In this document: in pieces, positions 44,204 to 48,085 of the stretch
Numbering within the stretch: position 1 is the first letter of the stretch
Layout: each line of letters opens with the position of its first letter
DNA from: Candidatus Pacearchaeota archaeon
Lineage (GTDB): Archaea > Nanobdellota > Nanobdellia > Pacearchaeales > GW2011-AR1
Length of the DNA: 48,085 nt
NCBI GenBank assembly: GCA_038874355.1
Contig: JAVZCO010000001.1
Span: forward strand, 386,074-434,158
Direction of reading: 5' to 3'
Made by a program: the position numbers and the translations under genes
Notes under the pieces: model-generated
What the model was told of the DNA's origin: nothing
Databases searched by the model: none
What the model saw: only the letters and a program-made list of their open reading frames with translations

Positions 44204-44965
44204 TTAACTATACCCATACCTATAAAAAATTACTAAATATCCTTCTTTATCAATTAGATAAAAACTATCTTTATCATCATTCCAAAAAGAAAAATTATAA
44301 CTTATCTTAATTATTTCTTGCGGGTTTAAAGTTAAATTTAATATATCTTTATTAGAAGAAGAATCATCTCTTATCTTCCAGCCATTTAGATCACAAGGAA
44401 AATTACAAATATTTTTTAAAACTATGTGTTCATAAGGATCTTTGTTATTTAATTCTTCTAATTTAATACAATCTTTACATATATTTTTTGATTCTTCCCA
44501 TATCCCTATTTTATTTTTTCTTGCTTCTTCTTCTGCTTTTAGCATTTCTTCGTAATAAATATCCTTTTTATAATAATATATTTTTGCTAAACCTTTCTCT
44601 AATATTAATTTATTAAATAAGGAATTATTATAATAAACATACCTTAATAATCTTCCATATCTATCTTTATTTTCATATCCTTTTAATTTTATTAAAATTA
44701 TTTCCTTATCTTTTAATTGAGAGGTAAAATTTTTTGCTTCTTCATATAGTCTTTCTTTTTTTTCTGGAACATTTATTCCTAATAATCTTACTATTCCTAA
44801 ATTTGTTTCTATTGTATCTCCATCCAATATTCTTGTTGCATTACAATACTCTTCTATTATCAAATCATTTTTTTCGGAATATTTTTCTTCTGTAGAGAAT
44901 AAAACGCCCATTAATAAAAAGGAATTAAAAATTAATAAGAATAAAAGTATTTTTATTAATCTCAT
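44204..44965 (-). CDS. Secreted thermonuclease (SNase) with lamin-tail-like domain
   Basis: 253 aa. Signal peptide or anchor (4-24). SNase fold: ATRILDGDTIETNLGIVRLL with Asp and Arg of the active site, then KDRYGRLLRYVYY with the second catalytic Arg, and GLAKIYYYKKDIYYEEML. After about residue 165 an LTD-like beta domain follows: HIVLKNICNFPCDLNGWKIR. The fusion is known in secreted archaeal and bacterial nucleases and would degrade external DNA or RNA, e.g. for nucleotide scavenging. The acidic general base is in NVPEKKERLYEEA. TATA TTTATATA (44994-44987) is 29 nt from the ATG. Confidence 0.85.
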   Translation of the reverse strand: MRLIKILLFLLIFNSFLLMGVLFSTEEKYSEKNDLIIEEYCNATRILDGDTIETNLGIVRLLGINVPEKKERLYEEAKNFTSQLKDKEIILIKLKGYENKDRYGRLLRYVYYNNSLFNKLILEKGLAKIYYYKKDIYYEEMLKAEEEARKNKIGIWEESKNICKDCIKLEELNNKDPYEHIVLKNICNFPCDLNGWKIRDDSSSNKDILNLTLNPQEIIKISYNFSFWNDDKDSFYLIDKEGYLVIFYRYGYS

Positions 44966-45038: not shown

Positions 45039-45518
45039 ATGAAAAAAGAGAACAAATTCAGACCGTTTCTCTTACTTCTAGGAATAATAACTTTCTTTAT
45101 ATTTGTAATTTCTTTTATTGTATTTTACACAACAGAAAATTTTTCTCCTGTTTGTGGATGTAAACTACCACCTTGGCTAGTTATTGTAATAGCTTCTTCT
45201 TTGGGTTTATTTGTTGGAATAATAACTTATTATATAATTTCCAATAATTTTATAAAAGAAAAAAAAGAGATCGAAAAAAATTTAATTAAAATACTAGATT
45301 TGTTAGATAAAGATGAAAGAGAAATTTTAAATAAAATAATAGAAAATAAAGGAGTAATAAATCAGAATTCTTTGACTAAGTTATTAAATTTGAATAAAGT
45401 AAAAGTATCAAGAATAATCTCTAAAATGATAAACAAAGGTATAATAAAAAAAGAAAGATTAGGAATGACTAATAGAATAAGTTTAGATGAAGAAATAAAA
45501 GATCTTTTCATAAGATAA
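45039..45518 (+). CDS. Membrane-anchored winged-HTH regulator with extracellular CxC
   Basis: 159 aa. TM1 about 10-30, a 15-residue outer loop with Cys39 and Cys41 (SPVCGCKLPPW), TM2 about 46-68, a linker helix, then a MarR-like winged helix (LDLLDKDEREILNKIIENKG, LTKLLNLNKVKVSRIISKMI). The topology puts the two Cys outside and the DNA-binding domain inside, so it could respond directly to redox or metals. It lies 69 nt upstream of a thioredoxin-CcdA fusion whose promoter has repeated GTTTCA boxes. The regulator-target link is inference. Confidence 0.85.
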   Translation: MKKENKFRPFLLLLGIITFFIFVISFIVFYTTENFSPVCGCKLPPWLVIVIASSLGLFVGIITYYIISNNFIKEKKEIEKNLIKILDLLDKDEREILNKIIENKGVINQNSLTKLLNLNKVKVSRIISKMINKGIIKKERLGMTNRISLDEEIKDLFIR

Positions 45519-45527
45519 TTATCTTAT
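45510..45527. terminator. Perfect 18-bp palindrome at the stop codon of the HTH gene
   Basis: ATAAGATAATTATCTTAT equals its own reverse complement; a hairpin with 7-bp arms could end the HTH transcript. Alternatively another operator for the downstream promoter. Confidence 0.4.
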
Positions 45528-45535
45528 TATAAATA

Positions 45536-45573
45536 GTTTCATTTTTTGAAACAAACATTTATAAGCAGTTTCA
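45536..45573 (+). promoter_or_regulatory. Trx-CcdA promoter with three GTTTCA boxes
   Basis: GTTTCA (45536-45541), its inverted copy TGAAAC (45547-45552), TATA box TTTATAAG (45558-45565, 30 nt from the ATG), then GTTTCA again (45568-45573). The boxes bracket the TATA box; a protein binding them would prevent TBP/TFB loading. Confidence 0.6.
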
Positions 45574-45587
45574 ATATATTTTAAACT

Positions 45588-46712
45588 ATGAAAGAATTAA
45601 GAATTTTTCCAACTAGAAAGTTATTAATTTTAATTTCATTATTTATTATACTTTTTCTTAACATATCTTACGCAAAAGATGTAAATAAAAATAGTAATAA
45701 AATAAATATTTATTTTTTTTATGGTTTAGGTTGTCCACATTGCGAAAATGTTATTTCTTCTGGAATTTTAGAAGAAGTTAGTAAAATAGAAAATGTTAAT
45801 ATATATAAATTAGAGGTCTATTATAATCAATCTAATAGAGATAAATATAATCAATTTGCTGATAAATTAGGCATTAGTCAATATCAAAGAGGAGTTCCAT
45901 TTTTAGTTATTGAATGTCAAAAAGGATACTCTTATTTTATTGGAGATACCCCGATAATTAATAATTTAAAAAATGCAGTTACAAACTGCACTCCAATGAA
46001 AGAGATTTCATCAGAAGTTTCTTCAGATAATCCAAATTCTCAAGCACTAACTTTTGGAAGTATAATTATAGCAGCTTTAATAGATTCTATAAATCCTTGC
46101 GCCTTTGGTGTTTTAATTTTTTTGCTTACTATTTTGATATCTATGGCCTCTACTAAAAGGGCATTAAAATATGGAATTATGTATACTTTTATAATATTTA
46201 TAGTATACTTTTTATTTGGTCTTGGGATTATAAAAGCAATAAATACTTTTTCAGGAATTATTAAATACTTTATTATTTTTGTTGCAATTTTAGTTTTTTT
46301 TGGCAGTTTAATTGAAATAAAAGATTTCTTTTTTTATGGAAAGGGAATTTCTCTTGCCATACCTAAAAAAATTAAACCAACTTTAGAAAAAATTACAAAA
46401 AAAGGAACATTTTTTGCAGTAATAATATTAGGACTTCTTGTTGCTTTAGTAGAATTGCCTTGTACAGGTGGTATATATTTAGCAATATTAAGTTTAATGC
46501 ATATAAATAAAACTTTTTCTATTTTTTATTTATTAATTTATAATATTATTTTTGTTTTACCATTACTTATAATAACTTTTTTTATTTGCTATGGAACTAA
46601 AACAGAAAAAATAAATAAATGGATAGATAAAAATAAAAGAAATATGAGATTGAGTGCAGGAATATTAATGTTATTATTGTCTTTTTATTTATTAAATTCA
46701 ATATTCAGATGA
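45588..46712 (+). CDS. Thioredoxin-fold / CcdA (DsbD-like) fusion membrane protein
   Basis: 374 aa. Signal peptide (10-29), an extracytoplasmic thioredoxin-like domain with CPHC (49-52, YGLGCPHCENV) and the cis-Pro VPFL segment (103-106), then a six-helix CcdA domain with its Cys pair, INPCAFGVL (C171) and VELPCTGGIY (C292). CcdA carries electrons from cytoplasmic thioredoxin across the membrane; the fused domain would pass them to outer disulfides, making a two-domain DsbD. Follows the redox-type membrane HTH. Confidence 0.9.
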   Translation: MKELRIFPTRKLLILISLFIILFLNISYAKDVNKNSNKINIYFFYGLGCPHCENVISSGILEEVSKIENVNIYKLEVYYNQSNRDKYNQFADKLGISQYQRGVPFLVIECQKGYSYFIGDTPIINNLKNAVTNCTPMKEISSEVSSDNPNSQALTFGSIIIAALIDSINPCAFGVLIFLLTILISMASTKRALKYGIMYTFIIFIVYFLFGLGIIKAINTFSGIIKYFIIFVAILVFFGSLIEIKDFFFYGKGISLAIPKKIKPTLEKITKKGTFFAVIILGLLVALVELPCTGGIYLAILSLMHINKTFSIFYLLIYNIIFVLPLLIITFFICYGTKTEKINKWIDKNKRNMRLSAGILMLLLSFYLLNSIFR

Positions 46713-46755: not shown

Positions 46756-47484
46756 ATGAAAATCTTATCATTTTTAAAAAATAGGGGAAATATTCTATAT
46801 TATCCGGGATGTTTAACAAAATTTGTTTTAAATGACATAGAAGAGAATTATAAAAAAATTTTAAGAAAAATAGGAATAGATTTTATTATGCTTAAAGATT
46901 TAGAAGTTTGTTGTGGAAATCCTATATTAAATTCTGGCCATGAAAAAGAAGCTAAAGAATTAGCACAAAAGAATTTTAATTTATTTAAAGAAAGAGGCGT
47001 TTCTAAAATAATAACTAATTGTCCTGCATGTTTTTATATGTTTAAAAATAATTACCCTAAATTAATCAATAAGTGGGATATAGAAGTAGAACACATAACA
47101 CAATCAATTGATAAAGCTATAAAGGAGGGAAAAATTGATATTAAAAAGTTAAATGTACCTATAACATATCACGATCCTTGCCATTTAAGTAGGTATTCTA
47201 ATGTTTATGAAGAGCCTCGTAACATAATAAAAAGTATAGGAAACTTAAAAGAAATGAAATTAACAAAAAATTATTCCTTTTGTTGTGGTGGTGGTAGCGG
47301 AGTAAAATCCAACTATCCAGAATTAGCAAATTCAATTGCAAAAGAGAGAGTAAAAATGGCAAAAGAAACAAATGCGAAATTATTATGTACTTCTTGCCCA
47401 ATGTGCTATTTAAATTTAAAAGAAAATTCAAAAGATTTAGAAGTAAAAGAAATAAGTCAATTAATTAGTTTAGAGAAAAAATGA
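46756..47484 (+). CDS. CCG-domain Fe-S protein (HdrB/HdrD/GlcF-type)
   Basis: 242 aa. Two CCG motifs: YYPGCLTKF, VCCGNPILNSGH, CPACFYMF; and YHDPCHLSRY, FCCGGGSG, CPMCYLNL. CCG domains coordinate a noncubane [4Fe-4S] cluster and catalyse thiol/disulfide or FAD-linked redox steps in heterodisulfide reductase and glycolate/lactate oxidases. No partner dehydrogenase is in view, and the N-terminal ferredoxin domain of GlcF/HdrD is absent, so it is HdrB-like. The GNAT gene overlaps it by 4 nt. Confidence 0.88.
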   Translation: MKILSFLKNRGNILYYPGCLTKFVLNDIEENYKKILRKIGIDFIMLKDLEVCCGNPILNSGHEKEAKELAQKNFNLFKERGVSKIITNCPACFYMFKNNYPKLINKWDIEVEHITQSIDKAIKEGKIDIKKLNVPITYHDPCHLSRYSNVYEEPRNIIKSIGNLKEMKLTKNYSFCCGGGSGVKSNYPELANSIAKERVKMAKETNAKLLCTSCPMCYLNLKENSKDLEVKEISQLISLEKK

Positions 47485-48038
47485 GAATAATAACAAAAAG
47501 ATTGATTTTAAGACCTCTAAAAAATTCAGACGCAAAAAGCATAGTCGAAAATATAAATGATTTGAAAGTTAGTAAATGGTTATTGGTTGTTCCTTACCCT
47601 TATAATTTAAGAGATGCAAAAAAGTGGATAAAGGAGACACAATGTGAGTGGAAAAAAAGAAATAAAAAAGAATATGTTTTTGGGATTGAACTTAAAGAAG
47701 AAAAAAAAGTAATTGGTGGTATAGGAATTCATAAAGTTGATAGGTTTCAAAGAAAAGCTAAGGTTAAGTATTGGTTAGGAAGAAAATATTGGAATAAAGG
47801 ATATGGAAGTGAAGCCCTTAAAGCTGTTTTAGAATTTGCTTTCAAAAAACTAAAATTAAGAAGAATAGAAGCGGGAGTCTTCGTTGGGAATATCCCTTCT
47901 AAAAAATTGCTTGAGAAGTTTGGAGCAAAAATTGAAGGAATAAGAAGGAAATCTTATATATGCAAAGCAGATAAAAAGATTAAAGATGAATATGTTTATG
48001 GTTTATTAAAAGAAGAATTTTTTTCAAATAAAAAATAA
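47481..48038 (+). CDS. GNAT acetyltransferase (RimJ/RimL type)
   Basis: 185 aa. RLILRPLKNSDAKSIVENIN at the start, ELKEEKKVIGGIGIHKVD, the acetyl-CoA loop GRKYWNKGYGSEALKAVLEF and KKLKLRRIEAGVFVGNIPSK, all typical of GNATs that acetylate protein N-termini or small molecules. ATG overlaps the CCG gene's stop (ATGA), so they are translationally coupled. Substrate unknown. Confidence 0.88.
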   Translation: MRIITKRLILRPLKNSDAKSIVENINDLKVSKWLLVVPYPYNLRDAKKWIKETQCEWKKRNKKEYVFGIELKEEKKVIGGIGIHKVDRFQRKAKVKYWLGRKYWNKGYGSEALKAVLEFAFKKLKLRRIEAGVFVGNIPSKKLLEKFGAKIEGIRRKSYICKADKKIKDEYVYGLLKEEFFSNKK

Positions 48039-48039
48039 A

Positions 48040-48085
48040 ATGAAAAATATCAACTTAAAAAAAGAAATAAAAAAGAATGAAGAAA
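48040..48085 (+). CDS. Start of a further gene, cut by the window edge
   Basis: ATG 1 nt after the GNAT stop, open to the edge: MKNINLKKEIKKNEE. Spacing fits continuation of the CCG-GNAT operon. Nothing can be said about function. Confidence 0.4.
   Translation, partial: MKNINLKKEIKKNEE

Follow-up and report, generated by a model that had tools for sequence, protein, structure and literature searches.

The window, by which we mean the whole stretch of 48,085 nucleotides that was analysed, carries a gene for a predicted membrane-bound winged-helix regulator (P0001), followed by a gene for a thioredoxin-CcdA fusion protein (P0002) and by genes for a CCG-domain protein, a GNAT acetyltransferase and a LutB-like protein (Table 1).

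Table 1. Features of the P0001-P0002 locus (positions are those of the window)
Feature	Position	Strand	Basis or remark
TATA-like TTTATAA of the promoter of P0001	45010..45016	+	23-29 nt upstream of ATG; read from sequence
Membrane winged-helix regulator P0001, 159 aa	45039..45518	+	ORF, profile, AF2 model, hydropathy
Codons of C39-G40-C41 in the predicted outer loop	45153..45161	+	Sequence, hydropathy
Winged-helix DNA-binding domain of P0001, residues 91-149	45309..45485	+	DUF7343 profile, AF2 model
Operator box 1, GTTTCA	45536..45541	+	Retained in relatives with exact spacing
Operator box 2, TGAAAC on the + strand	45547..45552	-	Pairs with box 1 as GTTTCA-N5-TGAAAC
TATA box of ccdA, TTTATAA	45558..45564	+	24-30 nt upstream of ATG; within the N15 spacer of TGAAAC-N15-GTTTCA
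Operator box 3, GTTTCA	45568..45573	+	21 bp (two helical turns) from box 2
Trx-CcdA protein P0002, 374 aa	45588..46712	+	Fusion of a thioredoxin-like domain (C49-P-H-C52) and a CcdA/DsbD membrane domain (C171, C292)
CCG-domain protein (LutA/HdrB/TfrB-like)	46756..47484	+	PF02754, E 4e-38
GNAT acetyltransferase, overlapping the CCG gene	47481..48038	+	Profile match
First codons of a LutB-like gene (LUD domain and 4Fe-4S)	48041..48085	+	Runs past the window (L065:7114-8397)

The cysteines C39 and C41 are the only ones in P0001 and are flanked by two hydrophobic stretches, as seen from the hydropathy. According to the profiles, the winged helix is of the MarR-like type: DUF7343 matches it with an E-value of 9e-11 (41.9 bits, cut-off 27.6) and is recognised in 29 of 31 relatives (E ≤ 0.001), and the MarR profile itself gives 21.0 bits (E 3e-4), under its cut-off of 24.6. 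An AlphaFold2 (AF2) model obtained with 31 relatives as input has a mean pLDDT of 79, and of about 90 for the winged helix. It consists of a helix (residues 7-33), a loop (34-44), a single long helix (45-86) and the winged helix (91-149), predicted to represent TM1, the outer loop, TM2 with a coiled linker, and the DNA-binding domain, respectively; the position of the loop outside the cell follows from the predicted topology. An earlier note on this DNA had described the protein as having two closely spaced cysteines outside and a winged helix inside, which agrees with these results, the topology being a prediction. The PDB folds closest to the model (Foldseek) are of the MarR family, with OhrR and AbfR, in several redox states, among the matches listed. 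These and other thiol repressors of the MarR family differ from P0001 in that they are cytosolic, have the sensing cysteine in the dimer core and possess no transmembrane helices.

The adjacent P0002 is the single match to PF02683 (DsbD_TM) in the whole 593-kb genome, with an E-value of 3.5e-7 and 27.9 bits in the genome search (cut-off 27.1) and 26.4 bits, slightly under that cut-off, in a hmmscan of the protein. Among the CcdA partners of P0001 relatives the equivalents of C171 and C292 are present in 34 of 35 and 33 of 35 proteins, respectively, and the CxxC motif in all 26 of 26. Its DsbD_TM domain, the conserved pair of membrane cysteines and the thioredoxin-like part with CxxC give P0002 the properties of a CcdA/DsbD reductase, and the assumption of the earlier note that the neighbour is an enzyme of the disulfide-reducing type agrees with the CPHC motif, the domain and both CcdA membrane cysteines. 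Weak matches below threshold were obtained with ArsG and SfLAP transporters; a function of P0002 as metal(loid) exporter is disfavoured by the conserved redox cysteines.

Between the two genes, three GTTTCA boxes enclose the TATA box of ccdA as GTTTCA-N5-TGAAAC-N15-GTTTCA, with one inverted N5 pair as noted earlier. Since the box centres are 11 and 21 bp apart, the boxes would lie on one face of the helix. No GTTTCA box was found at the promoter of P0001 itself. A lone GTTTCA is not enriched in the window (23 observed, 27.9 expected), but chance does not come near explaining the arrangement: the 593-kb genome has one GTTTCA-N5-TGAAAC and no copy of the reversed control, and base composition predicts 0.06 two-box sites and 4e-5 three-box sites. 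With a 38-bp position weight matrix for which eight operators from relatives were used, the own site being excluded, the window site scores 42.3 and the runner-up in the scanned 593 kb 13.1. There is no other site scoring near the window operator, which speaks against a wider regulon in this genome, and look-alikes with N4 and N8 spacing are located within coding sequence.

When 181 genomes of the same GTDB-type family were searched with a single sequence, 13 close members were obtained, including the one in the window, chosen by score alone; all 13 adjoin a Trx-CcdA gene and all 13 retain the two loop cysteines. Extending the search with a profile to 371 genomes of the phylum, together with a scan of named genomes, gave 45 unique loci from many families, the named records being Nanoarchaeota, Woesearchaeota and one member of the Aenigmatarchaeota. 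The scan made use of alignment A3, which is centred on the CGC loop, a diverse alignment (A1) having yielded no usable DNA pattern; 6 of the 45 loci come from this CGC-pattern scan and, being preselected for the motif, do not count as evidence for cysteine conservation. Two loop cysteines occur in 38 of the 45 members as CxC, CxxxC or CxxxxxC (including L167, of which the gene start is cut off and the CGC is visible), and the pair makes up 74 of the 86 cysteines (86%) of the family regulators. The earlier note had regarded homologues without the cysteine pair and the neighbourhood as an argument against its proposal; in this set a CcdA gene lies within 3 kb of 34 of the 38 two-cysteine regulators versus 1 of the 7 with fewer cysteines (Fisher p about 2e-4, from draft metagenome genomes, with linked loci and near relatives that do not count as independent). 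Sequence comparison thus establishes the family, its cysteine pair and the linkage, and indicates that the pairing of regulator and CcdA recurs across a whole class of archaea.

Several members that deviate from this pattern remain in thiol-redox surroundings. The two-cysteine regulators L134 and L154 adjoin either Grx or a Trx-like protein together with a pyridine-nucleotide disulfide oxidoreductase (in L154 a Trx/Grx-like protein and the oxidoreductase), and the two-cysteine member L138 adjoins a gene that reads as a similar flavoprotein. The cysteine-less or single-cysteine members L151, L153, L156 and L158 are also still beside thiol-redox genes. Among these, L153 (genome G317) has no loop cysteine and yet keeps two operators, with DsbA-like and CcdA-like genes adjacent, and L158 has a single loop cysteine and an adjacent CcdA gene; because of these two exceptions the cysteine pair is apparently not strictly required for the circuit. 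L153 is a natural test of the need for the pair. Such loci, and the variable spacing of the loop cysteines, would also suit a structural role of the loop disulfide, or a situation in which CcdA merely keeps the loop reduced while the regulator, activator or repressor, responds to another signal such as membrane state, electron flow or a partner protein. We consider this quite improbable in view of the loss of the pair along with detected CcdA linkage and the preponderance of the pair among the family cysteines. Moreover, short-ring CxC pairs occur at redox-active sites.

The spacing of the operator is identical in relatives whose regulators share 36-66% sequence identity. Near the 45 regulator genes GTTTCA ranks first of all 4096 hexamers as an inverted pair with N5 or N6 (14 loci); next come the variant GTTACA with 4 loci and then all others with at most 2. 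In a scan of gaps from 0 to 30, sharp maxima occur at N5 (20 loci) and N6 (5 loci) for inverted pairs and at N15 (19 loci) for everted ones, with 0-2 loci at nearly all other gaps and 0-1 in the control. The element TGWAAC-N15-GTTWCA shows a sharp peak around TATA boxes at the 45 related loci, and its N15 spacer contains a TATA-like core in the relatives. In 24 genomes this TATA-spanning element is found at 16 places, 15 of which are regulator-ccdA loci and one a CCG/LutB operon (G153). Together, the linkage and the exact operator spacing decide the refuting condition of the earlier note in favour of its proposal.

The gene order varies between clades. Regulator, operator and ccdA follow each other in the CGCKLP clade; in the CGCP clade the regulator and ccdA genes overlap (ATGA) and an N6 operator precedes both, its inverted pair lying entirely upstream of the TATA box; and genome G083 harbors a divergent regulator/ccdA pair with the operator in between. 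These orders imply that the operator goes with the promoter of ccdA, not with the regulator. In the ACGC clade the regulator's own TATA box lies between two inverted pairs, one of which overlaps the regulator start codon; this suggests autorepression in this clade. In L148, L149, L158, L161 and others, the inverted pair GTTWCAAAAAATGAAAC holds an in-frame ATG at or near the regulator start, and this operator may double as a start site.

The strict operator is present at 26 of 35 ccdA-linked loci and at 0 of 19 ccdA genes of regulator-free genomes (Fisher p 4e-8); with one mismatch allowed the numbers are 28 of 35 and 0 of 19 (p 4e-9). Its absence from all 19 Trx-CcdA genes in genomes without a core regulator, even at one mismatch, led us to reject the operator as a general feature of ccdA genes. 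In G185, where regulator and ccdA are on separate contigs, the full GTTTCA-N5-TGAAAC-N15-GTTTCA stays before ccdA. The operator and its specificity are thus established by comparison, and there is a strong case that the regulator acts at the GTTTCA boxes on ccdA. A chance neighbourhood with chance boxes in an AT-rich genome, to which the frequency of lone GTTTCA would correspond, has practically no likelihood left: it is ruled out by the conserved spacing, the matrix scores, the hexamer and gap scans and the regulator-free and unlinked (G185) controls.

The CCG gene is probably the second gene of the regulated operon. Its orthologue in G153, which forms a CCG-LutB pair, has its own copy of the same three-box operator in front; the two G153 copies, at contig ends that are nearly identical, may represent a single place that was assembled twice. 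Orthologues of CCG and LutB directly follow ccdA in the window and in G081, whereas in G072 and G087 ccdA-CCG is followed by genes for a FAD oxidase and a small Fe-S protein. The LutB-like gene matches PF02589 (E 2e-37) and TIGR00273 (LutB/LldF, E 3e-81), the latter under its cut-off. Judged by the common operator, the Fe-S (CCG/LutB) operon belongs to the regulon. The GNAT gene was seen in just one of the compared loci, and co-transcription with the CCG gene is suggested by its position only. The CCG and LutB-like genes travel with Trx-CcdA (46756-48085; L065:5830-8397; L058:178-2269), and their products may serve as electron suppliers of the CcdA pathway and not in lactate oxidation.

A sister family of paralogues beginning with MENKNVG... 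has the loop CxHGPxCxM (of 19 loops, 14 contain His and 17 Met) and no CcdA neighbour. It possesses its own palindrome TGAAACYAGTTTCA, found in 9 of 26 loci and located right after the HTH gene and before the apparent promoter of the next gene (for example in L031, L094, L025 and L028). Neighbouring genes, as read from the sequences, encode a heavy-metal ATPase, DUF411-like, cupredoxin-like and NifU-like proteins and small membrane transport proteins, and the family is probably the metal-responsive counterpart of the P0001 group. The occurrence of the same half-site in both branches supports GTTTCA as the recognition sequence. For the same reason the chief rival reading stays alive, in which regulator, operator and target are as described, the cysteine pair of the loop binds a thiophilic metal(loid) (Cu, Hg, As) and Trx-CcdA answers metal stress; the sub-threshold ArsG and SfLAP matches of P0002 fit in with it as well. 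This remains unlikely in our opinion, as extra ligands are scarce in the loops of the core family (4 of 37 have His, 5 of 37 Met), the partner retains the CcdA redox cysteines, the neighbours of core members are Trx, Grx, disulfide oxidoreductase, DsbA-like and Fe-S proteins, and in the flanks that were read no core member is beside a metal ATPase.

We therefore favour P0001 as a membrane-bound one-component repressor of the Trx-CcdA operon that senses redox conditions outside and is relieved upon oxidation, with a probability of roughly 0.6. The winged helix, on the cytoplasmic side of the membrane, would bind the GTTTCA half-sites, with a dimer on GTTTCA-N5-TGAAAC upstream of the TATA box and another subunit or dimer on the downstream GTTTCA. 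Because boxes on one DNA face that enclose the TATA box should exclude TBP, TFB and RNA polymerase, repression is the likely outcome. Activation, with the upstream inverted pair recruiting TBP/TFB and the thiol/disulfide state switching the effect, is doubtful; it would accord with the CGCP clade, where the N6 pairs are wholly upstream of TATA, and with OxsR, which works through a motif upstream of BRE/TATA (PMC9426492), but the clade of the window and the ACGC clade have boxes on both sides of TATA, as expected for repression, and one ACGC inverted pair overlaps the regulator start codon.

For the repressor proposed here, redox sensing by C39/C41 is plausible from the conservation of the pair, the scarcity of His and Met and the redox function of the CcdA target. 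The loop cysteines would gain or lose a disulfide with the external redox state, and the signal would pass via TM2, which is a continuous helix into the winged-helix linker in the model, to alter DNA binding. In which direction the response goes is a guess: outside oxidation would most likely lift repression, giving more Trx-CcdA, which would pass reducing equivalents from carriers in the cytosol on to disulfides outside, and the exported reductant would re-reduce the loop and close the feedback circuit. VKOR was considered as the outer oxidant and discarded, as it was not found in the own genome. Concerning the one-protein redox feedback loop put forward earlier, the regulator-operator-ccdA circuit is strongly supported by its linkage and exact spacing, and the redox-sensing step is what we infer. 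We give about even chances to the broader proposition of a class-wide DPANN family in which a minimal loop (CxC, CxxxC or CxxxxxC) senses disulfides directly, the action on DNA proceeds without a kinase or a periplasmic domain, and a TATA-enclosing operator makes the expression of CcdA, the trans-membrane electron exporter, and of the Fe-S electron-supply operon depend on the external redox state.

If this is correct, very small archaea, in which little regulation is known, would possess a complete one-gene trans-membrane signalling circuit that predicts its own DNA sites exactly, so that a test needs no more than one protein and one DNA fragment. It would also name a regulon (CcdA and the CCG/LutB Fe-S operon) and suggest the electron source of CcdA in these cells.

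Members of the CadC/ToxR family have an N-terminal OmpR-type winged helix, one transmembrane segment and a periplasmic sensor domain. On the basis of domain content and the AF2 model P0001 does not belong to this family: unlike ToxR, CadC and TcpP it has a C-terminal MarR/DUF7343 winged helix, two transmembrane segments and an 11-residue outer loop, with no periplasmic domain. These three proteins represent the transmembrane transcription regulators (TTRs), a class in which, as in P0001, one protein chain links a DNA-binding domain in the cytoplasm to a sensor part on the other side of the membrane; the combination of a DNA-binding domain with at least one transmembrane segment in one protein is predicted for P0001. 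A census of this class includes many archaeal membrane HTH proteins without assigned function, and the words disulfide, cysteine, redox and DPANN do not occur in its text (PMC10269533). CadC has a signal-dependent periplasmic disulfide (C208-C272) that is linked to pH, disulfide oxidoreductases reportedly being without major influence (PMC3096576), and periplasmic cysteines are important for the function of TcpP (PMC7017273).

Among archaeal proteins, ArnR and ArnR1 from Sulfolobus acidocaldarius are also membrane one-component HTH regulators with inverted repeats (TCGAC-N5-GTCGA), but have the opposite domain order, with an N-terminal HTH, HAMP and sensor domains and two C-terminal transmembrane segments, and are concerned with starvation and archaellum control; the searched part of the text mentions neither cysteine nor redox for them (PMC6396743). 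With its domain order and lack of HAMP and sensor domains, P0001 is not an ArnR/ArnR1 protein. OxsR from Haloferax volcanii is a winged-helix thiol switch over thiol-relay genes, yet consists of a single winged-helix domain without a membrane part, forms an intersubunit disulfide through one cysteine (C24) and recognises a CG-rich motif (PMC9426492). SurR from Thermococcales is a redox-responsive winged-helix protein with two nearby cysteines, GTT-type half-sites and disulfide oxidoreductase targets. It is a soluble ArsR-type protein with the CxxC in the DNA-binding protein itself, and its motif, given in PMC8595942 as GTTn3AACn5GTT, has GTTn3AAC instead of GTTTCA-N5-TGAAAC-N15-GTTTCA; a SurR-like origin of P0001 was rejected for its two transmembrane segments, the CxC in an outer loop and the other spacing. 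By analogy, P0001 would work like a TTR with a redox-active outer part and serve a purpose like that of the archaeal thiol switches, with an architecture that matches none of them. In the literature searched, mostly outside subscription papers and preprints, we found no earlier description of the regulator-CcdA pairing and nothing that connects CcdA with membrane regulators or Woesearchaeota. The earlier statement that no archaeal counterpart is known thus applies to a membrane-bound regulator tied to CcdA; membrane HTH proteins (ArnR/ArnR1) and cytosolic thiol regulators (OxsR, SurR) are known.

Two further gene associations were observed. In L061, L064, L060, L070, L135 and L145 the regulator-ccdA genes are beside paired MinD/ParA-type ATPases that carry 4Fe-4S ferredoxin domains; several of these loci also adjoin apparent DUF134, NifX-like and cation-efflux genes. 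In the window, P0001 adjoins a gene on the minus strand (44204-44965) for a secreted staphylococcal-nuclease-like protein with a weak lamin-tail match, relatives of which are found near two other regulator loci (L061 and L069).
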